Under the pieces are notes generated by a model. That model made no database searches. It saw nothing but the letters and a program-made list of their open reading frames with translations, and was not told the origin of the DNA. This document shows positions 37,341-50,137 of a stretch of DNA of 52,588 nucleotides, piece after piece. Each line of letters starts with the position of its first letter. The stretch's first letter is position 1. This DNA is from Acidobacteriota bacterium (lineage in GTDB: Bacteria; Acidobacteriota; Terriglobia; 20CM-2-55-15), in the NCBI GenBank assembly GCA_022821145.1, contig JAJEEE010000046.1, forward strand, positions 1 through 52,588. The letters are read 5' to 3'. The translations under genes and the position numbers were made by a program.

Positions 37341-38240
37341 TCAAAACGTGTGGGGTAGATCCCGCCCAGGCGCCCTGAAAATCGTACTTTGGTGCCAATT
37401 CAGAAACTTTCTGTCAGGCAAGTAGGATTCGCTCTGTGGCCGGATCAATGATCGTCCGTGAAACGCCATTAGCCAGTCCTTTTGTGTACCTCCCGAAATG
37501 TCCTGACTGAAGACCAACGTAAACTCATCGGGAGTCACCGTGAATGCACCGAGATCGAAGACCTTGTGGTGCAACGTACATAGCGCGAGGCCGTTCGACT
37601 CCACATCCGGGCCACCGGCTTGAGGCCACATAATGTGTGCCGCCTCGACGCCGGCCAGTGCGTCTCCAAGACGAAGGTCGTAACCACAAACGCAACATCT
37701 CGACTCATACGCCCTCAACACTCTCTGTCGAAATTCCCGGGACCCTTCTGGTTGACCAACGTTCGCACCTTGATTCAAGCCCACCGCCTCGACGATGTCT
37801 TGATGAAGCGTCCACGAAAAGTTGTTTTCGAGCACCGTCGATGCAATGACCTTGAGATTGTCCGGGTCCGATCGCAGGACGCGTAGGACCTCGTCCGTGA
37901 AGGTCCCCACGGCGTTTTTCTTGATCAACTCCGACTTTCTGGCGTCGGTATTGCCCGAACGACGACCGAGCGGTCCATCGGCGGAGACGGTCCACAATCC
38001 GTCATTCTGTAACCGCCAGAAAGGATACTCAGTGTGGATCGATCTTCGTTTCGGTCCGAAGACTCGCAGCAGAGCCCGAAGCGCGGGATCTACCTCCACA
38101 AACGGCAGCGCATGACGACCCTGCGAGAATTGTCCCAGCGCATAGAGCGTGAGAAGCGGCTTGTGCGGGGCGGTTCGACCCCCGTGGCGCCACATCCGTA
38201 GTTTGCTGAACTTCTCCAACAACGACTGAAGGTCAGTCAT
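37341..38240 (-). CDS. Phosphorothioate-binding HNH restriction endonuclease (SBD-HNH, McrA-like)
   Basis: This 299-residue protein would recognise DNA with a sulfur-modified backbone and cut nearby. The N-terminal region (about 1-155) matches the sulfur-binding domain of ScoMcrA-like enzymes: FSKLRMWRHGGRTAPHKPLL, then HTEYPFWRLQNDGLW, the segment with the aromatic/proline pocket. The C-terminal part is an HNH nuclease with zinc-type cysteines in CCVCGYD (Cys182-185), His202 in EAAHI, Asn216, and LHHKVFD. All catalytic positions are present, so it looks active. It stands alone at the left end of the island, about 4 kb from the dnd operon. Confidence 0.87.
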   Translation of the reverse strand: MTDLQSLLEKFSKLRMWRHGGRTAPHKPLLTLYALGQFSQGRHALPFVEVDPALRALLRVFGPKRRSIHTEYPFWRLQNDGLWTVSADGPLGRRSGNTDARKSELIKKNAVGTFTDEVLRVLRSDPDNLKVIASTVLENNFSWTLHQDIVEAVGLNQGANVGQPEGSREFRQRVLRAYESRCCVCGYDLRLGDALAGVEAAHIMWPQAGGPDVESNGLALCTLHHKVFDLGAFTVTPDEFTLVFSQDISGGTQKDWLMAFHGRSLIRPQSESYLPDRKFLNWHQSTIFRAPGRDLPHTF

Positions 38241-38939: not shown

Positions 38940-39293
38940 ATGCCGACGGTGGACGGTACCCACTGGCGCCGCGCATACTCGCTCGACGCCGCCCGAGCGG
39001 AAGCACCTACTCTCTCCGGTGTATACGCAATAGCGCTCGCCAAATCTGTCGCGAACCTGCCTGTCTCCTTGGAATGGGTCTACATTGGCCGAAGTAGCAA
39101 CCTGCGACGGCGGTTCGACGAGCACGGCCCCATTCTCGAGCAGCACGACGAACTCCGTGAGTGGATCATTGCGAACCGCGATAGGATCGAGACTTGGTTC
39201 ACCCTACGCGAGGCCACGGAGTCTGCACGACTCGAGAAATATCTGATTCGACAACTCAAACCTCGCTTCAACCGTATTCGATATTCCTCTTGA
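38940..39293 (+). CDS. GIY-YIG nuclease family protein
   Basis: This 117-residue single-domain protein has the GIY-YIG core: SGVYAIAL (27-32) for the first motif, VYIGRSSNLRRRFDEH (47-62) for the second with its catalytic Arg, and Glu99 in RLEKYLIRQLKPRFN as the metal ligand. It would nick or cut nucleic acid. GGGAG stands 7 bp before the ATG. It is the first of three plus-strand genes with shared low G+C (21 bp gap, then 31 bp), followed by the DGQHR and RelA/SpoT genes. No extra DNA-binding domain is present, so a partner may give specificity. Confidence 0.88.
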   Translation: MPTVDGTHWRRAYSLDAARAEAPTLSGVYAIALAKSVANLPVSLEWVYIGRSSNLRRRFDEHGPILEQHDELREWIIANRDRIETWFTLREATESARLEKYLIRQLKPRFNRIRYSS

Positions 39294-39314
39294 CCCAACT
39301 CACGGTTCAACACG

Positions 39315-40886
39315 ATGTCAAGCCAAAACCCAGATTCACTCATAGACGAAATCCTTCTCGAAGAAGACAAGCACCGTCGGGCACTTGCAATGTTGCTCGA
39401 CAAGTACGCCAGCGCTGAGGACAAACTCCTTGTCGAGAAGACAGTCATGGGCGGTACCGAAGCATATCTCGGCGCGGTAACGCTCGACTGGTTCGCCGAG
39501 AAAGTTCGTTTTGCTGCACAGCTCCCTCTGTTCAGTCGCAAGGTCGACGAGGATACCGGCACCCTCACCATTGACGAAGAAACGATAGACGACATCCAAC
39601 AACGGCCCCTTGACTGGTCTCGTCAGGCATCGTTGGCGCAGTATCTCGCCACGAAAACAGTTCACAAGTTTCCGCCCGTTCTCGTGGTCGGGACTCGCGA
39701 TTGGGTTGACGACCCAACCGCAGACGAATGGCTTGGCGATAGGGCTCAGGCTTCCTCATTGACTTTCCTTCCGCTGGACAAGGCCGGACAACTTGGCCTC
39801 ATCGACGTTTCGCCCGATGTCTACATTTACGCGCTTGACGGGCAGCATCGCCTCATGGGCGTCAGGGGACTGATGGAACTGATACAAGGCGGTCGCCTCT
39901 CCAGAAAGAACAAAGACGGAAGCGAAAAAAAGGGTCCGCCCATTACGACGGACTCTATCGCTAAGGAATACAACGTCACTCCCGAAAAACTTCAACGTCT
40001 GAGCAAGGAACGGATTGGCATCGAGTTCGTTTCCGGAGTTGTAATGGGCGAAACAAGGGAGGAAGCAAAACAACGCGTCCGCTCGATTTTCGTTCACGTC
40101 AATACAATGGCCGCCCCGCTCTCCAAGAGCCAGACTGACCAGCTTGACGAAGACTACGGATTCGCCATAATAGCTCGCCGCGCTGCCGTCACCCACCCAC
40201 TTTTGAAGGGTCGGATTGAATGGAATAAGACCAACGTCACGGAGACGGCTTCGCAGTTTTCTACATTACACACATTGAAGGAAATGTCCCATCAGCTGCT
40301 TTTTAGCAAGTTCCCGAAGTGGGAACGCGCGGAGCGGGACCTAATCCCTCAGCGGCCCAAGGATCCCGATCTTGAGGAAGGTCTCGATCACCTCAATGAT
40401 TTTCTGAATCGGTTAATGATCTTTCCCAGCATTAGAGCACTCCTTGAAGGCGCTTCCTGCAGTGAACAACGTTCTCTCAAGGACAATGGTCACGCGAATC
40501 TCTTGTATCGTCCCGTTGGACAGATGGCCTTGGCGGCGGCGTGCGGCCGCCTGATCTACGCGGCTCGGCAAGATGCGGACTCGGTTTTTAGGAAGATCAC
40601 AAAATTCGACACGGAAGGCGGTTTTGCTCATATCAACCGGCAGAACTCACCATGGTACGGCGTACTGTATGACTTCGGCAACAAACGAATCCGATTGCCT
40701 GGCCGATCTCTCGCTGAAGACCTGATGGCATACCTCTTCGGTGGCGGACTGCCGGATGACAAACAACGTGAGAAACTTCGGTCGGAATTTGCCGGTGCTC
40801 GGACGATCGAGAACACGTCCATCACTCTGGAAGGCATTGAGACGGAGAGACGTCAAGACGTGAACCTGCCTCCCATCGTCCATTAG
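39315..40886 (+). CDS. DGQHR domain protein (DndB/DpdB-related)
   Basis: This 523-residue protein has the family signature YALDGQHRLMGV (DGQHR at 175-179) and the VHVNTMAAPLSKSQTDQLDED block, which is the ParB-like/DndB pattern where the DGQHR core is followed by an N-rich helix. DndB-family proteins bind modified or target DNA and regulate phosphorothioation; DpdB belongs to the 7-deazapurine system. This protein is about 150 residues longer than DndB and only distantly similar to the dndB product at 47511-48644. Lower G+C than the dnd genes suggests a separate origin. Its role here is unknown. Confidence 0.85.
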   Translation: MSSQNPDSLIDEILLEEDKHRRALAMLLDKYASAEDKLLVEKTVMGGTEAYLGAVTLDWFAEKVRFAAQLPLFSRKVDEDTGTLTIDEETIDDIQQRPLDWSRQASLAQYLATKTVHKFPPVLVVGTRDWVDDPTADEWLGDRAQASSLTFLPLDKAGQLGLIDVSPDVYIYALDGQHRLMGVRGLMELIQGGRLSRKNKDGSEKKGPPITTDSIAKEYNVTPEKLQRLSKERIGIEFVSGVVMGETREEAKQRVRSIFVHVNTMAAPLSKSQTDQLDEDYGFAIIARRAAVTHPLLKGRIEWNKTNVTETASQFSTLHTLKEMSHQLLFSKFPKWERAERDLIPQRPKDPDLEEGLDHLNDFLNRLMIFPSIRALLEGASCSEQRSLKDNGHANLLYRPVGQMALAAACGRLIYAARQDADSVFRKITKFDTEGGFAHINRQNSPWYGVLYDFGNKRIRLPGRSLAEDLMAYLFGGGLPDDKQREKLRSEFAGARTIENTSITLEGIETERRQDVNLPPIVH

Positions 40887-40917
40887 CCCCTGTATCGTCG
40901 GGCGGACCCCAATCGTT

Positions 40918-41892
40918 TTGAATTCGTATCCGTTTGATCAGCCGTCTAAGTCGTCCATTGACAAGGCCGGTAAGCGCCTTCGTAAGTTGGCCTACGCCCC
41001 CGACGAGAACTGGCGAAGGGAGTCTGACTTGGAAGTCGTAAGGAACTACCGTGGTCGTCGGGCTCGCGACTTGCCACGGATATTTCGTCGCCTGTGCGAC
41101 GCGGCCGGGGGAGTACACTGCAACATCAGTGTCCGCGCAAAACGGACCGACGCCATTGTTCGGAAACTTGCAAGAATGGGTACCATGGCGCTAACCCAGA
41201 TGGACGACATCGTTGCCGCTCGAGTCTTGTGTGCATCCTTGGGGTTCCAGGAAAGGCTCATTACCGCTTTGAAGGACGACTTCGCCACGTCCGGTGCGGT
41301 TCGGGTCAAGCAATACCTCCGGCCCGCCCGCAGAGACGGTTACCGTGCAGTTCACCTTATCGTCAAAATGCCTCAGGTCAACCTAGCCAAGGACGGGCCG
41401 GCGAATTTCTCGGTCGAGCTCCAAATTCGCACCTATTTTCAACATCTGTGGGCGACGATGTCGGAGAGTTTTGGAGAACAGGTGAAGGAGGGCGGTGGTA
41501 CGAAGGCAGAGCGTATCTATTTGCGCGAGCTGTCGAGCAAAATCGAGTCATTCGAGACCGGTCACCGGGACTACGTTCAGAAGCAGATGGCTCGCCACAC
41601 TACAGCTCTGTGTTTTCAAATCATCTCGTTCGCGAAGAAAATCGGTGCGGTCAGAGATTCTACGGAGTTTCACGAGAGTGAGATTGAATCGGCACTGTCC
41701 TATTTGACTATGCTCGAGAGGCGAGAATCGGATCAGTCTATAGAGGTCGTGCTTCTGGGAGCGTCTTGCGACACAGACACACTCCAAAGTACGCACGAAC
41801 GATACTATCGAGCTCGTGGCATTCCTGGTTTGCCGGACTTTCTCGTTCCGGTTATGGCCCGTCCGGAGCGTGCCACGGCACCGTTTGCATAG
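40918..41892 (+). CDS. Stand-alone RelA/SpoT-type alarmone synthetase
   Basis: This 324-residue protein contains one RelA/SpoT nucleotidyltransferase domain and no HD hydrolase. The synthetase motifs appear intact: SVRAKRTDAIVRKL (73-84), the metal-binding Asp in QMDDIVAARV (96/97), RDGYRAVHLIVKM with Tyr142 and His146, and FSVELQIRTYFQHLWATM with Glu167. About 130 C-terminal residues form an extra mostly helical region. The start is TTG, 31 bp after the DGQHR gene, the first start codon in the frame. It could make (p)ppGpp-like or (pp)pApp alarmones, or pyrophosphorylate tRNA, as toxic SAS proteins do; which is unknown. Confidence 0.85.
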   Translation: MNSYPFDQPSKSSIDKAGKRLRKLAYAPDENWRRESDLEVVRNYRGRRARDLPRIFRRLCDAAGGVHCNISVRAKRTDAIVRKLARMGTMALTQMDDIVAARVLCASLGFQERLITALKDDFATSGAVRVKQYLRPARRDGYRAVHLIVKMPQVNLAKDGPANFSVELQIRTYFQHLWATMSESFGEQVKEGGGTKAERIYLRELSSKIESFETGHRDYVQKQMARHTTALCFQIISFAKKIGAVRDSTEFHESEIESALSYLTMLERRESDQSIEVVLLGASCDTDTLQSTHERYYRARGIPGLPDFLVPVMARPERATAPFA

Positions 41893-42223: not shown

Positions 42224-43678
42224 TTACGCGATTCGCCGTAGACGGTGACCGTCTGTTCGCAGGCGCGCGCGTGCTAGCGTCTGCTCCCAACCCTCCTTGG
42301 TTCCGATTTCGTCCGTGTGAGTCAGCAACCCTTTTCGCTCCTCAGCCTTAGTCAGCCGAGCGAACACTTTATGGCGTGGGTGAAACGTCGTGACGAAGAG
42401 TTCCTTTCGATGCAAAACCGGTGGATTCAAAGACGCTGAGTGGTCGCGACGGGTGACGTCGAAGGATTGGAGGTCGACTACGACGACCTCTTGAAGCGCA
42501 GGATGTGGGTCGCGGTCGAATTCCGGATACACGAGGTACGAGACCGCCGGACGCGTCGTCCAGAGCTTGATGATGTTCGCGCCGTCGATCGTGCCGGCAA
42601 TCGCGCGCCCGCATCCTTCGTACATTCGCAATAACGATGGCAGCTCGGGCAGCGCGCTGACGTGCGCGTAGAACGCTGTCCGTGTCCGCTTCCCGGTCGG
42701 CGCGCCTCGACAGGCACGCTCGATGTTCGCCAAGTTGCCGAGGGATAACAAAAGCGCGTCAGCGAGCGTGCAGGCGCGTTTGTACGCAGTGAAGAACGCT
42801 CGGATGTCGCGCTGCAGAACGGTGGGCAGTTGTCCGAACTTCGCCCGCTGTCCGAACTTTGCCAACGCCAAGTACACGAGCAAGTCTTCGGCCCGTTCGT
42901 CGCCGATCCGGTCCCACTCGTCTGGTCCCGTCACTGTGCGAATGATCCCGAAAGCGCGTTTGATGCTTCCGAACTGCTCGGTGAGTTCTGTCCGGTCCAG
43001 CTCATCTGGCACGGGAAGGCGTCCACGCTCAACGACAAACTCGATCAGCGGCGTGAGCACGGCTTGGTGTTTATCGAAGAGTTCCGCGGACCGTTCGATA
43101 CGCGGAATCCGCGTCCGGCGCATGAATCTCGCCGCGAAGAACGACTGTCGCTCGGTGGCGTCTTGAAACACGTAGAAGATGCCGGGCGCGGCCGCCACGC
43201 TCTCTGTGTCCAGGGTGGCGTCGATCCAGTCACGGAGCTCTTGTTGTTCGTAATATTTCTGGAAAGTGCCGGCTCCGGTGAGCCACCCGTCGTTGCAGGG
43301 CGTCGCGCTCTTCTCTCGGGCTTCGAACGACAGCCGGGCAGAGACGATCAACACGCGTTGCGTGAACGACCACGCGCGTCGAAGCGTCTCGACTCGTTCG
43401 GCGGCGCGTTCGATGACGTTGACGACATACCCGAGGTTGACCACCTCGGCCGGCTCGAGAAGTCCCGTCGGTCGGTGAATGGGATCCCAACCCTCGCATG
43501 TCATCCCTTGGCGCGAAAGGCGTCGCACGTCGTCCCCGTGTCCGCAGCCGTAGTCGAGAACGCGCGTTTGCGTCGTGATGATCTGGTCGTCGAGCGCTAC
43601 CTGAATCGGGCGCGACAGGGCTGGACGGTGAATCGCGGTTCGACCACGAGCGTCGGGCACGCCCGCAGTTGATCGCAT
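42224..43678 (-). CDS. DNA phosphorothioation-associated putative methyltransferase
   Basis: This 484-residue protein is recognised as the dnd-linked methyltransferase family. The N-terminal SAM-binding Rossmann region shows RVLDYGCGHGDDVRRL (39-53), then NLGYVVNVIERAAERVETLRRAW, where the acidic and aromatic motif positions of the family lie. The large C-terminal part has no other recognised domain and ends in a basic tail. It is the last gene of the dnd operon, 10 bp after dndE, with AGGGGA before the ATG. Its target and its role in modification or defence are not established. Confidence 0.87.
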   Translation of the reverse strand: MRSTAGVPDARGRTAIHRPALSRPIQVALDDQIITTQTRVLDYGCGHGDDVRRLSRQGMTCEGWDPIHRPTGLLEPAEVVNLGYVVNVIERAAERVETLRRAWSFTQRVLIVSARLSFEAREKSATPCNDGWLTGAGTFQKYYEQQELRDWIDATLDTESVAAAPGIFYVFQDATERQSFFAARFMRRTRIPRIERSAELFDKHQAVLTPLIEFVVERGRLPVPDELDRTELTEQFGSIKRAFGIIRTVTGPDEWDRIGDERAEDLLVYLALAKFGQRAKFGQLPTVLQRDIRAFFTAYKRACTLADALLLSLGNLANIERACRGAPTGKRTRTAFYAHVSALPELPSLLRMYEGCGRAIAGTIDGANIIKLWTTRPAVSYLVYPEFDRDPHPALQEVVVVDLQSFDVTRRDHSASLNPPVLHRKELFVTTFHPRHKVFARLTKAEERKGLLTHTDEIGTKEGWEQTLARARLRTDGHRLRRIA

Positions 43679-43688
43679 GATGCGTCCC

Positions 43689-44072
43689 CTACCTGGCGGG
43701 CAGTTCGCGCCGGTTCTTCGGAATCAACTGGACGAGATCGGCCACGTTGCGGACCCGCTGTCCGAGAAGAATGACGCCGCGGTTGAGGTGCGCGCGAAAG
43801 TAGGCGGTAAGATCGTCCTGACCGACGCCATCGCGTTGGCAGCGCGCGACGAGCAAGGCGACGAAGAGATCGTCGTATTCCCCGAGCAGGGTGTAGCGAT
43901 TGAATTCACGCTCCTCTTCGTCGAACTGGTCCGGGTTGGGAATCGTGGGGTCGGCCAGCGACAGGCACAGGCCAATCCGACACAGGAGGTTCGGCGTCAG
44001 GCCCGTGCGCCCAGCGGTGTACTTCACGCGATTCGAGGCATCCTTGGTCAACTTGATCTTGGTCAGTTGCAT
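43689..44072 (-). CDS. dndE: DndE, DNA phosphorothioation protein
   Basis: This 127-residue protein is the DndE component. It starts MQLTKIKLTKDASNRVKYTAG and contains TGLTPNLLCRIGLCLSLA, a typical DndE core, then acidic and hydrophobic helices. DndE forms a tetramer that binds nicked DNA and joins the DndC-DndD complex. A GTG at 44087 overlapping the dndD stop is an alternative start giving five more residues; I prefer ATG 44072 because GAGGG lies 8 bp before it. It is fourth in the canonical dndBCDE order. Confidence 0.93.
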   Translation of the reverse strand: MQLTKIKLTKDASNRVKYTAGRTGLTPNLLCRIGLCLSLADPTIPNPDQFDEEEREFNRYTLLGEYDDLFVALLVARCQRDGVGQDDLTAYFRAHLNRGVILLGQRVRNVADLVQLIPKNRRELPAR

Positions 44073-44083
44073 TCGGCGCACCC

Positions 44084-46084
44084 TCACCAGAAGTAGCCGC
44101 GTTGCACATGCGTCGCGCCATCGCCGTCATCGTAGCCAAGATGGTACGAGCGCGCGATATGCGGTTTGAGCTCCGTGAACGCTTCCGCGTCGACTTCCTT
44201 GTCGGTCGACAGGACGATGACTTGATGACTCGCCGCGGGGAGGTAGTCGTTAAGGAACAGCGTGCGGTGGTCGCTGTCCAGGCGCGCCATCGGCGTGTCG
44301 ATGATGACCGGCAGCGGGCGTCCCGACGTACGCGCGAGCGCCCAGAGCATCGCGACCGCGTACATTTGCTTTTCTCCCGCGGACAGATGCGCCTTTTCGA
44401 TCTCCCGCTCCTTGTGATCCCGCAAGGTCACGGCGAGGTCGTCGGGCGCGATCTCGATCGAGCCGATCCGGTCCTTCTTTCGCGACAGCAGTTCGAAACA
44501 CTGCGTCGCCTCTCGAGCGAGCTCTCGCGTCTTTCGTTTGAGGAGAGCTGTCTGGTAGTCGTCCAGGACCGTCCGAAGGCGCGGGATCAGTCGCGTCGTC
44601 GCTTTCGCCGCATCTGCCGTGGCGAGTCGGTCGAGTTCCGTCGCATAATCGCGCTTGAGTCGTTCGTGTCTGGACTGGAGAGCTTGCAACTGTCGATGAA
44701 GTTCGTCGCCGCGGCGTGTCGCCCGTTCCAACTGTTCATGGTGTTCCTCGAGTCTTGCCACCAGCGGCGCGACCACGCCTTCCTCCGGAACCTTCTTCAG
44801 TCTGCGCTCGATCCGCTGAAGTTCCCTGTATTCCTCGTCGAGTCGTTTAGCGACCGCTTGCATCGACACGGGGATTTCGTTTGTGGCCTCGCGAATCCAT
44901 TCTCCCAGGCGGGCCCGTTTCGAGGGTGACAGGTCATGCACGATGTCGCACGAACCGGCCGACGGAGCGAACGTGCGTGCGATGACGCCATCCAGTTCTT
45001 CCCTCACACGCGTGGTGGCGCGCTTCGACAAACCCTTGACAGAGTCGAGGAAACCATCGTCGTGTACGGCGCCGAGGAGTTCGTCCTTTGCCCGTGCCAG
45101 TCGAGCTTCGGCAGCTCGGTTCTCGAGAGCGGCCTCCTCGGCGGCGAGCGAAGCTCGCAGTTGCAGACAGAGATCCGGTACGACAGCGAACGGGAACAGC
45201 CCGGAAGCGGCTTCACGGACCGTGTCTTCGTCCCGTTGGATCCGTGCGATTAACGTCGCCCGCCGCTCGGTTAGCGCATCACGGTCCTTTGCCAGAGTGC
45301 CCCCTTCGGCCGTGAGTTGACTGGCCACCCGGCCGATGGATTCGCGAAGCTCCAGTACGACTGCCTGCGCGTCTCTCTCCGCGGCGGCCGTAGCATCGAG
45401 TTCTTGGGACGCCTCGCGAAGTTCCGCCTGAAGACCTTCCGTTCGGTCCTTGGGGTCTTTTCGTCGCACGTGGCGGGTGGCCTTTGTCAAGTAGATGTTG
45501 AGGTCTGCGTTCAGCCGTTCGACGAGGTGGAGTCCGAGAAGCGACTTGATCGCATCATGGAGCTCAACCGTGTCGGTCGAGTCGCGCGCGAGTCGCTGGA
45601 TGCGTTCTCCGTCGAAAAAGAAGAGGTCCGCGATACCCCTTGGCACAAGATCTTCGACGAACTCCCCCCAGTGCTGATTCTCGATCTCGTCCACGGGCAC
45701 GCCGTCACGCGTCAATTCGAACGTCTCGCTTCCAAGCGCGCCGTTGCTGCGCGTCCACGATCGAGTCAGTTCATATGTACGGACCCGACCGTATTCCGAA
45801 ACGTCGACTACGAGGGCGACGCTCGCGAAACCCGGTTGAACCAACAGGTGCTGGCTGGAGTGGATCTTTTCGTCGAGGTAAGCCGCGTATTGAGCCTGCG
45901 TGAGTGGTCCGTTCACTTTGGCGCCGTAGAGGCAAAGTCGGATCGCCTCGAAGAGCGTGCTCTTCCCCGCCCCATTCTTTCCACCGATGAGCACGATGCT
46001 GCGCGAGCCCCTTGATGTCAGATCGAAAGTGTGCTCGCCGCGAAACACGCCAACGTTCGTCACTCGGAATGTCTTGAGAATCAT
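44084..46084 (-). CDS. dndD: DndD, SMC-like ATPase of DNA phosphorothioation
   Basis: This 666-residue protein is an ABC/SMC-type ATPase that is believed to supply energy or DNA remodelling for sulfur insertion. The Walker A is IGGKNGAGKSTLFEAI (residues 33-48). The middle consists of coiled-coil stretches rich in Glu, Arg and Leu. The signature LSAGEKQMYAVAML and Walker B LPVIIDTPMARLD stand near the C-terminus. It starts with an ATGA overlap with dndC and its end overlaps the dndE start region. Length and motifs fit intact DndD. Confidence 0.95.
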   Translation of the reverse strand: MILKTFRVTNVGVFRGEHTFDLTSRGSRSIVLIGGKNGAGKSTLFEAIRLCLYGAKVNGPLTQAQYAAYLDEKIHSSQHLLVQPGFASVALVVDVSEYGRVRTYELTRSWTRSNGALGSETFELTRDGVPVDEIENQHWGEFVEDLVPRGIADLFFFDGERIQRLARDSTDTVELHDAIKSLLGLHLVERLNADLNIYLTKATRHVRRKDPKDRTEGLQAELREASQELDATAAAERDAQAVVLELRESIGRVASQLTAEGGTLAKDRDALTERRATLIARIQRDEDTVREAASGLFPFAVVPDLCLQLRASLAAEEAALENRAAEARLARAKDELLGAVHDDGFLDSVKGLSKRATTRVREELDGVIARTFAPSAGSCDIVHDLSPSKRARLGEWIREATNEIPVSMQAVAKRLDEEYRELQRIERRLKKVPEEGVVAPLVARLEEHHEQLERATRRGDELHRQLQALQSRHERLKRDYATELDRLATADAAKATTRLIPRLRTVLDDYQTALLKRKTRELAREATQCFELLSRKKDRIGSIEIAPDDLAVTLRDHKEREIEKAHLSAGEKQMYAVAMLWALARTSGRPLPVIIDTPMARLDSDHRTLFLNDYLPAASHQVIVLSTDKEVDAEAFTELKPHIARSYHLGYDDGDGATHVQRGYFW

Positions 46085-47514
46085 GAAAGGCTAGGCTCCG
46101 CACTCGGCGTCACACGCGCCGTCCGCACGATTTCGTCGTCCGTCCGCCAGTCTTCTTCAAGAACGCTCGCGATGCGTTGATGCACGCTTGCCCGGCGGGT
46201 CATCCCATGGACCTGCCGTTCGACTTCGAGCAGCTTGGCGACCAGGCCGACAGGGATGTTCTCTCGCTCGCAGAACTTCTCCAGCAACGAGAGCTCCTCC
46301 CTCGCGAACCCGGGTTGCTCATCGCGCTCCCAACTGTGTACGGCTCCCGTCACCTCGTGAACGATCCTGGCCACGGAGTCTTCCCAGTCGTGCTCTTCGG
46401 CGCGCCAGATGCGCCGTATGTGCTCCAACTCGGCGAATGTGATCAATTCCTCGTCGGAATCCGGCCCGTCGCGCCTTACGAGCAACTGCGTGGCCAGGAG
46501 CCGCCGCAGAAGTTCCTTTCGCGTCTCGAGCGTGTAGGGTCCCCACCGCCGAGGCGTTCCCGTCTTGTCGGTCATGACCCTGCCGTTGCGTCGCTTGAAT
46601 TGCCGCAACTGCGCCTTCGCGTCGGGATCTTGCGTCTCGGCCAACATGTCTCGGTAGTCGAGCAGCGGCTGCATCCATTCCTCGCCGCTGTCGATCAGGG
46701 CCTCCATGGACTTGTCCTTGGTCACGACCGTACACACCCAGCAGCCGAAGCGACTGTTGCCGCAGGACGGTGTCGTCGTGTCCACCACAAGCGGGCACTC
46801 CCCAGCTTGCGCGTTGCGATACAACGTGACCAGATCGCGATTGTTGTTGCCCCATGGCGACGGGACCTGCAGGAGATAGGTCCAAACGTCGTCCACGCTG
46901 AAGTCTTCGATGGGCGTATAGACGAACGCGTTCGCGAGGGATGAGTGCCGCGAAAGAACGCTTCCCTTGATGCGATGAAGCGTCATGACCTGCGCGCGTG
47001 TCGCGCTCTCGCTCTTTCGCACGCCGAGGACAACGACGACTTCACCGTGTTCCGTTACCCGGTCATTGATGAACTGATTGGCCGGGTGGATCTTGAGGCG
47101 TTCCGTACACCAACGGAACGTCTTCGACGGCGCCGGATAACCCTTTCCGATGAGGTTCACCCAGAAGCTGTCCTCCGTGCGCGGCTTCACCTTGTGCGCG
47201 CTGAAGGGCAGAGACCCCTTGCGCGCCGCCCGGTTCATCTTGTCCAAGTTGGTGTCGATGTATTCGACGATTTTCGGAGTCTCGACCAGCGTGTCGGCGG
47301 CAATGACGTAGACAGGCTTGGTTCGTTCTTCGGCAGGGAGCGATGACAGTGCGGTCCATATCAACTGAAGCGTGGTCGTCGAGTCCTTGCCGCCGCTGTA
47401 TCCGATCACCCACGGCCGATCGTCGGCACGGTAGGTGCGGCGGATCTCGTCGTAGCGCCGCTGGAGAACGGTCCGATCCAAGCCTTTGCCGTTGGACTTG
47501 CCCACCTTGTTCAC
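46081..47514 (-). CDS. dndC: DndC, PAPS reductase-like sulfurtransferase of DNA phosphorothioation
   Basis: This 477-residue protein has ATP pyrophosphatase activity in the family and activates the DNA phosphate for sulfur. The PP-loop SGGKDST is at residues 40-46. The Fe-S cysteines appear in RWCTERLK and SCGNSRFGCWVCTVV. An apparent longer frame reaches 47721 but runs through dndB. The GTG at 47514 overlaps the dndB stop (GTGA), giving VNKVGKSNGKGLD at the start. DndA, the cysteine desulfurase that usually donates sulfur, is not in the window, so a chromosomal IscS-like enzyme probably serves. Confidence 0.95.
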   Translation of the reverse strand: MNKVGKSNGKGLDRTVLQRRYDEIRRTYRADDRPWVIGYSGGKDSTTTLQLIWTALSSLPAEERTKPVYVIAADTLVETPKIVEYIDTNLDKMNRAARKGSLPFSAHKVKPRTEDSFWVNLIGKGYPAPSKTFRWCTERLKIHPANQFINDRVTEHGEVVVVLGVRKSESATRAQVMTLHRIKGSVLSRHSSLANAFVYTPIEDFSVDDVWTYLLQVPSPWGNNNRDLVTLYRNAQAGECPLVVDTTTPSCGNSRFGCWVCTVVTKDKSMEALIDSGEEWMQPLLDYRDMLAETQDPDAKAQLRQFKRRNGRVMTDKTGTPRRWGPYTLETRKELLRRLLATQLLVRRDGPDSDEELITFAELEHIRRIWRAEEHDWEDSVARIVHEVTGAVHSWERDEQPGFAREELSLLEKFCERENIPVGLVAKLLEVERQVHGMTRRASVHQRIASVLEEDWRTDDEIVRTARVTPSAEPSLS

Positions 47515-48644
47515 CTCGTCGCCTTGACCAGATTCGCCCGCAGTCGCTTCTCCTCCGGCGTCAACGGAACCTTGAGCGCGCGCTTGAGGATGCCCGTTGT
47601 CAACAGGACATTGTTGTGGGCCTTGCTCACGCGCCCCCCGATCATGGCCGTGCCTTCCCACAGTTTCGTGTTGGCACGGCGCCAGTCGATGCCCTCGAGC
47701 GCCGCGAGCCGTTCGCGCCACCGTGCCGGTTCCGACGCAACCAAACCATGCCCCATAAGCCCGAGGGAGTGGAGCGCGATGCCGTGGGCGTGGATGTAAT
47801 CGCGCCTAAGCTCTGCCGCGCTAACCTTGCGCTCGCGCGCGAGTTGCCAGTCGGGCATGTGACTCGCCACGCCGGCCCAGAAGTCCGTGGCGAGTTTCTC
47901 TTCCCTGGGCGCGATGGCGCCGTTCTTGGGCTTGTTGAGCAGCGCCCGTGTTCCCTGATAAATGCTGCTCAGCGTGAAGAGCTTGATCGATCGATTCGAG
48001 ATGGAAATCTTCTCCGTTTCGGTCAAGCCGTTGAACACAGACACGGAACTCATGAGTTTCTTGGCTAGGCGCGACTGCGGATCCCGATAGTCGTACAGGA
48101 TGCCCAACGATTTGCTCGGGCGGACGGCGTGCTTGTTGAGGTCGGCGAACATCTGCTGGCTGCGTTCGAGCCGCGGATCGAGAAAGAAGACGACCGCAAT
48201 GGTTTCGTCGCCAAGCTCCGGCCGTTCCTTGAGCGCCTCCTCGATTGCGGCACGTCGGTGTTGACCGTCGTTGATGATGAATCGTGAGGTCATCGGAACG
48301 ACGAGTTGCCCGACGTTGCGCGACAGGCCGTCGCCGTTGATGGATGTGAACGTCACGTCACCGTCGATCGACGCGGTGATCGCCGAGAATACGTACTCGG
48401 TTGGATTCTCCGTCAGGTATTGCGACATCTCGGGCACGCGAGCGCGGTTCAGCGTACGTTGCGCCCGCAATTCCGGCGGGATCTCGCCTTCGTCGAAGAG
48501 GAAGATTTTCGGAATGAGCTTCAGCGGGCACATCGCCACAAAATACTCTCTGCCCGCTTGCTCACCGCGAAGGGCGGCGAACATGTACGAGAACGAGTCG
48601 GTCGGTCCGGGTGATTCGGCCGGCTTATGGAACTCGGTCGTCAC
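47511..48644 (-). CDS. dndB: DndB, DGQHR-domain regulator of DNA phosphorothioation
   Basis: This 377-residue protein carries IINDGQHRRAAIEEAL (DGQHR at 126-130) and FADLNKHAVRPSKSLGILYD, the typical DndB core. It is non-essential for modification in known systems and is reported to repress or tune the dnd operon. It starts with GTG and is the first gene of dndBCDE. The 5' leader has a candidate promoter with two 10-bp direct repeats, plus a hairpin close to the start. Its stop overlaps dndC. A second, longer DGQHR protein lies in the neighbouring cassette. Confidence 0.94.
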   Translation of the reverse strand: MTTEFHKPAESPGPTDSFSYMFAALRGEQAGREYFVAMCPLKLIPKIFLFDEGEIPPELRAQRTLNRARVPEMSQYLTENPTEYVFSAITASIDGDVTFTSINGDGLSRNVGQLVVPMTSRFIINDGQHRRAAIEEALKERPELGDETIAVVFFLDPRLERSQQMFADLNKHAVRPSKSLGILYDYRDPQSRLAKKLMSSVSVFNGLTETEKISISNRSIKLFTLSSIYQGTRALLNKPKNGAIAPREEKLATDFWAGVASHMPDWQLARERKVSAAELRRDYIHAHGIALHSLGLMGHGLVASEPARWRERLAALEGIDWRRANTKLWEGTAMIGGRVSKAHNNVLLTTGILKRALKVPLTPEEKRLRANLVKATR

Positions 48645-48955: not shown

Positions 48956-50137
48956 ATGATCGACCGGGATATCACGCCGCAACTGCTGAAGTCCGCCGCC
49001 ACCTCGCCGGCCGTCACGCTGACCGGACCGCGCCAAAGCGGCAAGACCACGTTGTGCCGCAGCCTCTTTTCCGAGCGCGCGTACGTCACGCTCGAAGCGC
49101 CGGACACGCGCGCGTTCGCGACCGAGGATCCCCGCGCGTTCCTGGCGCAGTTTCCCGGCGGCGCCGTCATCGACGAGATCCAGCGCGCGCCCGATCTGGT
49201 TTCGTATCTTCAAGGCATCATCGACGACGATCCGAGTCCCGGACGATGGATTCTCACCGGCTCGCAGCACCTGTTCCTTCTGGCGTCCGTGAGCCAATCC
49301 CTGGCCGGACGGACCGCCGTGCACCATCTGCTGCCGTTGACGCACGACGAGATCGCGCGTTTCGAACGGCGCCGCGCCACTCTGGACGAGACTTTGTTTG
49401 CCGGCGGTTATCCCCGTATCTTCGACGGCGAGCTGGATCCGTCCGAGTGGCTTCGCTCCTATGTCGCCACGTACCTGGAAAGGGATGTCCGGACCATCGC
49501 GAACGTCGGCGACCTGGCGACCTTCCAGAGGTTCGTCGAGTTGTGCGCCGGACGCACGGCGCAACTGCTCAACTATTCGTCGCTGGCCGGTGATTGCGGC
49601 GTTTCGCAGCCGACGGCCAAGGCATGGCTCAGCATCCTCGAGGCCAGCTTCGTCGTCTTTCGGCTTCCGGCGTTTCACGCCAACCTCCGAAAGAAGCTGG
49701 TCAAGATGCCGAAACTGCATTTTTTCGACACGGGTCTCGTCTGCTGGCTTCTGGGAATTCGCGACCCCGGGCAACTGCGCTCGCATCCGCTTCGGGGGGC
49801 CGTCTTCGAAACCTGGGTCGTGGCGGAAGCCGCCAAACTCCGAAACAACCACGGGTTGACGCGGGGCCTGTCCTTCTATCGCGACCGCAACGGCGCCGAG
49901 GTCGATCTCGTCATCGAGCAGAATCGGAACGTGGCGTTGATCGACGCCAAGTCCTCGGCCACACCGTCGGGAACTCTGCTCGCCGGAGTCAAGCGCGTCC
50001 GCCGGCACTTTGCCGATGCGGACGCCGATTGCCGCATCGCGGCGGTTTACGGCGGCGACGAGGGCCAACCTTACAGCGACGGCGAGATCGTGCCGTGGCG
50101 TCAAATTCGGACTGCATGTCTGCCCGAAGCCGTTTGA
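48956..50137 (+). CDS. AAA ATPase with DUF4143 domain
   Basis: This 393-residue protein has an AAA_14 P-loop, LTGPRQSGKTTLCRSL (22-37), and a Walker B-like GGAVIDEIQRAPDLVSYLQ, then ILTGSQHL as a sensor motif. The DUF4143 C-terminal domain contains HFFDTGLVCWLLGI and FETWVVAEAAKLR, ending in a PD-(D/E)xK-like pattern (YRDRNGAEVDLVI, LIDAKSS). Proteins of this type are scattered among bacteria and archaea and are often gained by transfer. G+C is back to the chromosomal level. Function is unknown; a link to the island is possible only by position. Confidence 0.88.
   Translation: MIDRDITPQLLKSAATSPAVTLTGPRQSGKTTLCRSLFSERAYVTLEAPDTRAFATEDPRAFLAQFPGGAVIDEIQRAPDLVSYLQGIIDDDPSPGRWILTGSQHLFLLASVSQSLAGRTAVHHLLPLTHDEIARFERRRATLDETLFAGGYPRIFDGELDPSEWLRSYVATYLERDVRTIANVGDLATFQRFVELCAGRTAQLLNYSSLAGDCGVSQPTAKAWLSILEASFVVFRLPAFHANLRKKLVKMPKLHFFDTGLVCWLLGIRDPGQLRSHPLRGAVFETWVVAEAAKLRNNHGLTRGLSFYRDRNGAEVDLVIEQNRNVALIDAKSSATPSGTLLAGVKRVRRHFADADADCRIAAVYGGDEGQPYSDGEIVPWRQIRTACLPEAV

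Follow-up and report, generated by a model that had tools for sequence, protein, structure and literature searches.

Closest described systems

In SspE and DndI, an NTPase of the ParB fold that bears a DGQQR motif senses phosphorothioation (PT) of DNA and gates a nickase (PMC9646914, PMC11662687). Binding of both ATP and GTP has been demonstrated for a DndB-like protein (PMC12704722). Many PT modification loci have no DndFGH, which raises the question of what restriction arm they use (Rakesh et al. 2024, PMC10853773). The same paper reports GIY-YIG (URI) and SBD-HNH nucleases near dnd genes, and the section considered here makes no mention of a tight pairing of GIY-YIG with a second DndB-type gene. 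A full-text search of the same paper found no ppGpp or RelA-enzyme element. The toxSAS proteins act by pyrophosphorylating the 3'-CCA end of tRNA or, in other members, by synthesizing (pp)pApp (PMC11782079).

We analysed a 52,588-nucleotide stretch of DNA from an Acidobacteriota bacterium (the window), in which GIY-YIG, DGQHR, and RelA/SpoT-type genes lie head to tail on the plus strand with spacers of 21 and 31 bp. We propose, with a probability of about 0.68, that this is a composite cassette: a PT-linked sensor-nuclease pair that adjoins an independent CapRel-like gene. The pair would resemble SspE and DndI in that a modification-linked, ParB-family NTPase-like protein is combined with a nuclease in a PT locus. 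However, the pair consists of two separate genes, the nuclease is GIY-YIG instead of HNH, and the other protein is of the DGQHR/DndB type instead of DUF262. None of the window's proteins matched PF03235 or PF07510, so the SspE/DndI arrangement (a DUF262 DGQQR NTPase fused to a DUF1524 HNH domain) was not found.

Layout and base composition of the locus

The cassette lies between an SBD-HNH gene and a complete dndBCDE plus methyltransferase operon (48644-42224, minus strand). The features are:

37341..38240, minus strand: SBD-HNH PT-dependent restriction endonuclease, 299 aa (NF045808, E = 4.5e-92, full length)
38940..39293, plus strand: small single-domain GIY-YIG nuclease, 117 aa, ATG start (PF01541, E = 3.7e-5)
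39315..40886, plus strand: second DndB-family (DGQHR) protein, 523 aa, ATG start (TIGR03187, E = 4.7e-40; PF14072 DndB, E = 1.9e-15)
40918..41892, plus strand: predicted CapRel-like fused toxSAS (Rel), 324 aa, TTG start (PF04607 RelA_SpoT, E = 3.2e-15)
42224..43678, minus strand: DNA phosphorothioation-associated putative methyltransferase, dnd_rel_methyl (TIGR04096, E = 2.9e-176)
43689..44087, minus strand: DndE (TIGR03184, E = 1e-24)
44084..46084, minus strand: DndD (TIGR03185, E = 4.7e-150)
46081..47721, minus strand: DndC (TIGR03183, E = 3.1e-174; match from residue 91)
47511..48644, minus strand: canonical DndB (TIGR03233, E = 2.2e-148)

The listed DndC reading frame reaches about 90 codons into dndB, and its true start is probably near 47500. 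An AAA ATPase with DUF4143 (48956-50137) adjoins dndB and matches the PADLOC candidate PDC-S01 (E = 5.5e-105).

The initial annotation had described three closely spaced plus-strand genes of shared low G+C content within a dnd island, and we reproduced their coordinates, their spacing, and their composition. Its gene identities also held up. It had described a GIY-YIG nuclease with its catalytic Arg and Glu, the DGQHR protein as a relative of DndB, and Rel as a protein that keeps the synthetase motifs and has no hydrolase. The domain matches listed above agree with these assignments, and the link that it drew from Rel to growth arrest by toxSAS proteins and CapRel was also right.

The HNH, GIY-YIG, DGQHR, and Rel genes have 54-58% GC (GC3 60-64%), the dnd operon has 61-62% GC (GC3 71-80%), and the neighbouring backbone genes have 67-70% GC (GC3 86-97%). 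Because its GC3 is below that of the dnd operon, the low-GC block is compositionally distinct from the operon that it adjoins. The common low G+C of these four genes fits their acquisition as one block, and coupling among them stays possible. Promoter and terminator signals in the cassette did not exceed what chance would give; possible co-transcription is suggested by the spacing. The surroundings of the cassette gave no Rfam match and contained neither repeats nor tRNA genes.

The SBD-HNH protein has a legible SBD motif (HTEYPFW) and HNH motif in its translation, and its gene has a GC3 of 0.64. This seemingly intact PT-dependent enzyme adjoins an intact dndBCDE operon, so the host's own DNA should be exposed to it. 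In a published survey, fewer than 3.6% of predicted PT-dependent enzymes showed an SBD-HNH/dnd association (PMC7461809). Of 80 cyanobacterial dnd loci (those of the best 80 of 404 DGQHR relatives), 27 have a relative of the SBD-HNH protein no more than 3 kb from the DGQHR gene, and cyanobacterial dnd loci may be an exception to the survey's low figure.

The DGQHR protein belongs to a long, dnd-linked clade

Like DndB, the window's DGQHR protein has the DGQHR domain, a match to PF14072, and linkage to dnd genes. Unlike DndB, it does not match the equivalog model TIGR03233 above the cut-off and is about 150 residues longer, and a canonical DndB is encoded elsewhere in the locus. An alignment of seven sequences, searched against 84,980 species genomes, gave 404 relatives, of which we inspected the best 80. 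All 80 were cyanobacterial, with 45-50% identity to the window's protein along nearly its full length. The window's protein is 45-51% identical to the cyanobacterial proteins over about 520 of its 523 residues, and in a maximum-likelihood tree it groups with them with 100/100 support, while canonical DndB falls apart from them. Given the full-length alignment and the common branch, we assign it to a long clade that is linked to dnd and otherwise cyanobacterial.

Among these 80 cyanobacterial loci (L035-L114), 75 have dndC in divergent orientation within 4 kb of the long DGQHR gene; a canonical DndB is present in only 8 of the 80 (again from the best 80 of 404). The long cyanobacterial protein may therefore be a stand-in for DndB. 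Single-sequence search found a GIY-YIG gene in none of the 80 loci (best 80 of 404 relatives). A profile search found one in two of them (L078 and L103), on the opposite strand and about 1.7 kb from the DGQHR gene, and we do not count these two as pairs.

None of the order's ten other genomes has the window's DGQHR gene, which fits horizontal acquisition. When single window proteins were used as queries, scans of viral sequences returned no relatives. A Foldseek comparison of the DGQHR model (pTM 0.62) to the PDB found no similar solved structure, so the fold is unconfirmed.

Two more distant DGQHR proteins are combined differently: one (L267) with a PLD-like protein along with HATPase and helicase genes, the other (L268) with a Card1/Hjc-like segment adjoining a Dam-type methylase. 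DGQHR proteins thus appear to associate with a wide variety of nucleases.

GIY-YIG and DGQHR genes form a recurring pair in PT systems

Besides the long clade, there are short-type DGQHR proteins (~420 amino acids) that are not canonical DndB. A GIY-YIG gene lies directly upstream of the short-type DGQHR gene in all ten loci, and the two reading frames usually overlap by 1-4 bp. The pairing was seen in each of the first seven loci (L007, L008, L022, L023, L024, L025, and L151), and once this rule had been noticed, three more loci (L270, L289, and L290) also had the GIY-YIG upstream, with E values of 5e-18 to 5e-33. The GIY-YIG proteins of L023 and L151 were recovered by a profile that was built without them (E = 9e-34 and 3e-30). 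For the difference from the long type (10/10 versus 0/80 with an upstream GIY-YIG, the 80 being the best of 404 relatives), the Fisher p of ~2e-13 is indicative, as the loci are not fully independent.

Where the short-type loci could be identified, they are PT systems (Dnd, SspABCD, or SspFGH):

Rhizobium NXC14 plasmid: dndBCDE
Roseobacter plasmid: SspC
L022: SspC
L024: DndA, a DndC-like protein, and GmrSD
L025: SspA and SspH
Rhizobium K1/93: SspFGH

GIY-YIG plus DGQHR is thus a recurring accessory pair of PT systems. In the open-access literature, we found no description of a tight pairing of GIY-YIG with a second DndB across Dnd and Ssp loci.

The window's nuclease has the GVY and YIG motifs of GIY-YIG nucleases, along with Arg58 and Glu99, and this Arg and Glu are invariant across the alignment of GIY-YIG proteins from the pairs. 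A profile of seven GIY-YIG proteins from short-type pairs, built without the window, matches it at 31 bits. In gene order, linkage to a PT locus, and this profile match, the window's pair is like the short-type pairs. Its DGQHR protein is not short-type and falls in the long clade, so we suggest that the window's pair works like a short-type pair, and we do not file it as one. None of the 80 long-clade relatives (the best 80 of 404) has an adjacent GIY-YIG, so the case for a pair in the window is made by the neighbouring position of the two genes and the modest 31-bit match.

The same genome has an Ssp locus on another contig (C20:20000-33000, L234; 3406-12915, minus strand), with SspB-SspC-SspD, a GIY-YIG-like protein, a DGQHR protein, and a DEAD-box helicase. 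This second pair is divergent: the GIY-YIG-like gene scores 17 bits against Pfam (below the curated cut-off), with YVGQTGDLRARVGQHL legible, and the DGQHR protein has 673 amino acids. Dnd and Ssp therefore coexist in this genome, each with a GIY-YIG and DGQHR pair.

Rel is a CapRel-like fused toxSAS

From its sequence and its structural model, we predict that Rel is a CapRel-like fused toxSAS. The synthetase motifs are kept (R73-x-K75-R76, D97, GYR at 141-143, and E167-x-Q169-x-R171), and a search with domain models found no hydrolase domain. Rel has a synthetase domain at about 65-200, linker helices, and a predicted antitoxin-like pseudo-zinc-finger domain at about 231-314. It shares with CapRel-SJ46 the N-terminal synthetase domain without a hydrolase, the FQHLWAT active-site region, and the C-terminal pseudo-zinc-finger. 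It differs in its low identity to relatives (~20-29%), in a shorter linker, and in having HXXY at 293-296.

Sequence comparison of Rel to the PDB at first yielded small alarmone synthetases and CapRel. A profile of Rel and nine relatives aligned end to end with CapRel-SJ46 (7ztb/9erv; CapRel 5-341, E = 2e-65) and covered its C-terminal antitoxin region. A profile built without the window matched residues 249-298 of the window's Rel at 11.5 bits. In the AlphaFold model (pLDDT 83), helices at 196-223 are followed by strands at 231-239 and 244-252, a helix at 253-269, a strand at 275-283, and a helix at 286-314; this strand-strand-helix-strand order and the switch helices agree with the published pseudo-zinc-finger of CapRel (PMC9712102). 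CapRel (7ztb/9erv) was also the best match of the model in Foldseek. The linker is about 30 residues shorter than in relatives. We considered whether half of the antitoxin domain had been lost, as alignments set the gap there, and rejected this, as the model has all three strands and puts the gap in the linker helices.

At the switch, Rel has THERYY where CapRel has AYPNYF, so the first Tyr is replaced by His293 and Tyr296 is retained. Because this is HXXY and not YXXY, we classify Rel as CapRel-like and not as CapRel. The substitution Y352A turns CapRel-SJ46 toxic (PMC9712102), so self-inhibition of Rel is not assured and may be weaker. The Rel from an Acetobacter locus (L115) has the same TH..Y motif and no DGQHR neighbour.

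The PADLOC model for the candidate family PDC-S33 also recognizes Rel (E = 3e-38) and its CapRel-like relatives, so Rel is already among candidate defence families. However, that candidate is listed as one gene and includes neither a DGQHR nor a GIY-YIG partner. A scan of viral contigs found 168 relatives, and most of the 80 loci that it returned have a YPNYF-type motif at the C terminus. In the host's class, about 7 of 299 genomes have full-length CapRel-like matches. CapRel-like genes occur singly and are often in prophages. This genome also encodes a housekeeping RSH of 750 codons.

Rel was not seen beside the pair in the other loci examined

The initial annotation proposed that the three genes form one system. 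The GIY-YIG and DGQHR half of that proposal recurs, but Rel lies beside the pair in no other locus that we examined. Searches that started from DGQHR and searches that started from Rel both failed to give a second example. There was no relative of Rel at the 80 closest DGQHR loci (cyanobacterial; the best 80 of 404 relatives) or at 11 other GIY-YIG plus DGQHR loci. Conversely, the pair was absent from 80 viral Rel loci (of 168 relatives) and from about 15 bacterial or plasmid ones. Within 6 kb of Rel, the 80 viral loci had no DGQHR or dnd gene, and one contig had a separate GIY-YIG protein. Co-occurrence in adjacent genes was the check that the annotation itself had suggested, and the outcome counts against Rel's membership. 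Among everything we examined (more than 180 loci), the trio is in this genome only.

Proposed mechanism and alternative explanations

By analogy with SspE and DndI, we suggest, as the most likely mechanism, that the DGQHR protein is a nucleotide-binding reader of PT on DNA, which would license the separate GIY-YIG protein to cut or nick DNA that is unmarked or wrongly marked. Infection, presumably by phage, would free Rel from its own C-terminal pseudo-zinc-finger domain, and the freed Rel may then pyrophosphorylate the 3' ends of tRNA, or make an alarmone, and so halt growth. The pair and Rel are probably in one locus because defence genes cluster and not because they act jointly. Coupling between them is possible yet unsupported.

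A different account, which we consider rather unlikely, has no sensor-nuclease unit at all: the DGQHR protein would be a second regulator of PT of the DndB type, as is probably the case in cyanobacteria, and the GIY-YIG protein would be an unrelated, stand-alone suicide nuclease. The divergent orientation of most cyanobacterial relatives to dndC and the rarity of canonical DndB in those loci (among the best 80 of 404 relatives) point this way, and URI/GIY-YIG genes at the edges of dnd loci have been interpreted as suicide effectors (PMC10853773). But the short-type DGQHR gene has a GIY-YIG directly upstream in every locus, often in an overlapping frame, which argues for joint action, and the GIY-YIG to DGQHR order is the same in the window and in this genome's Ssp locus.

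There is little chance that all three genes make up one abortive-infection system, in which the DGQHR and GIY-YIG proteins detect the status of DNA and switch on the Rel toxin. The shared strand, short gaps, and common composition would be expected of such a system, and the weakened YXXY of Rel might reflect a transfer of control to a trans-acting partner. However, the combination was not seen again in the more than 180 loci examined from either side, the order's ten other genomes lack the DGQHR gene, and the Acetobacter Rel has the altered motif without a DGQHR neighbour. Also, Rel has its own antitoxin-like domain, so the neighbours are not needed as sensors. A specific form of this coupling seems to us very improbable: a PT sensor made of the DGQHR and GIY-YIG proteins would have taken over the control of Rel from the weakened YXXY, holding it inactive on DNA with the right sulfur marks and releasing it on unmarked or damaged DNA. 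If true, this would couple modification of the DNA backbone to inactivation of tRNA. It is also improbable that Rel is a functionless, decaying passenger, as its TTG start, HXXY switch, and short linker might suggest: the 324-codon frame is open, the synthetase motifs are complete, the model is confident, and the TH..Y motif is shared with the Acetobacter protein.

Implications

CapRel-like genes are already known, and the one here would be a further case of a toxSAS as movable defence cargo; as a natural HXXY variant, it may be useful for probing the autoinhibition model. Both Dnd and Ssp loci can have a GIY-YIG gene just upstream of a gene for a second DndB-type protein, and this arrangement offers a specific, testable candidate for an SspE-like effector divided between two proteins.
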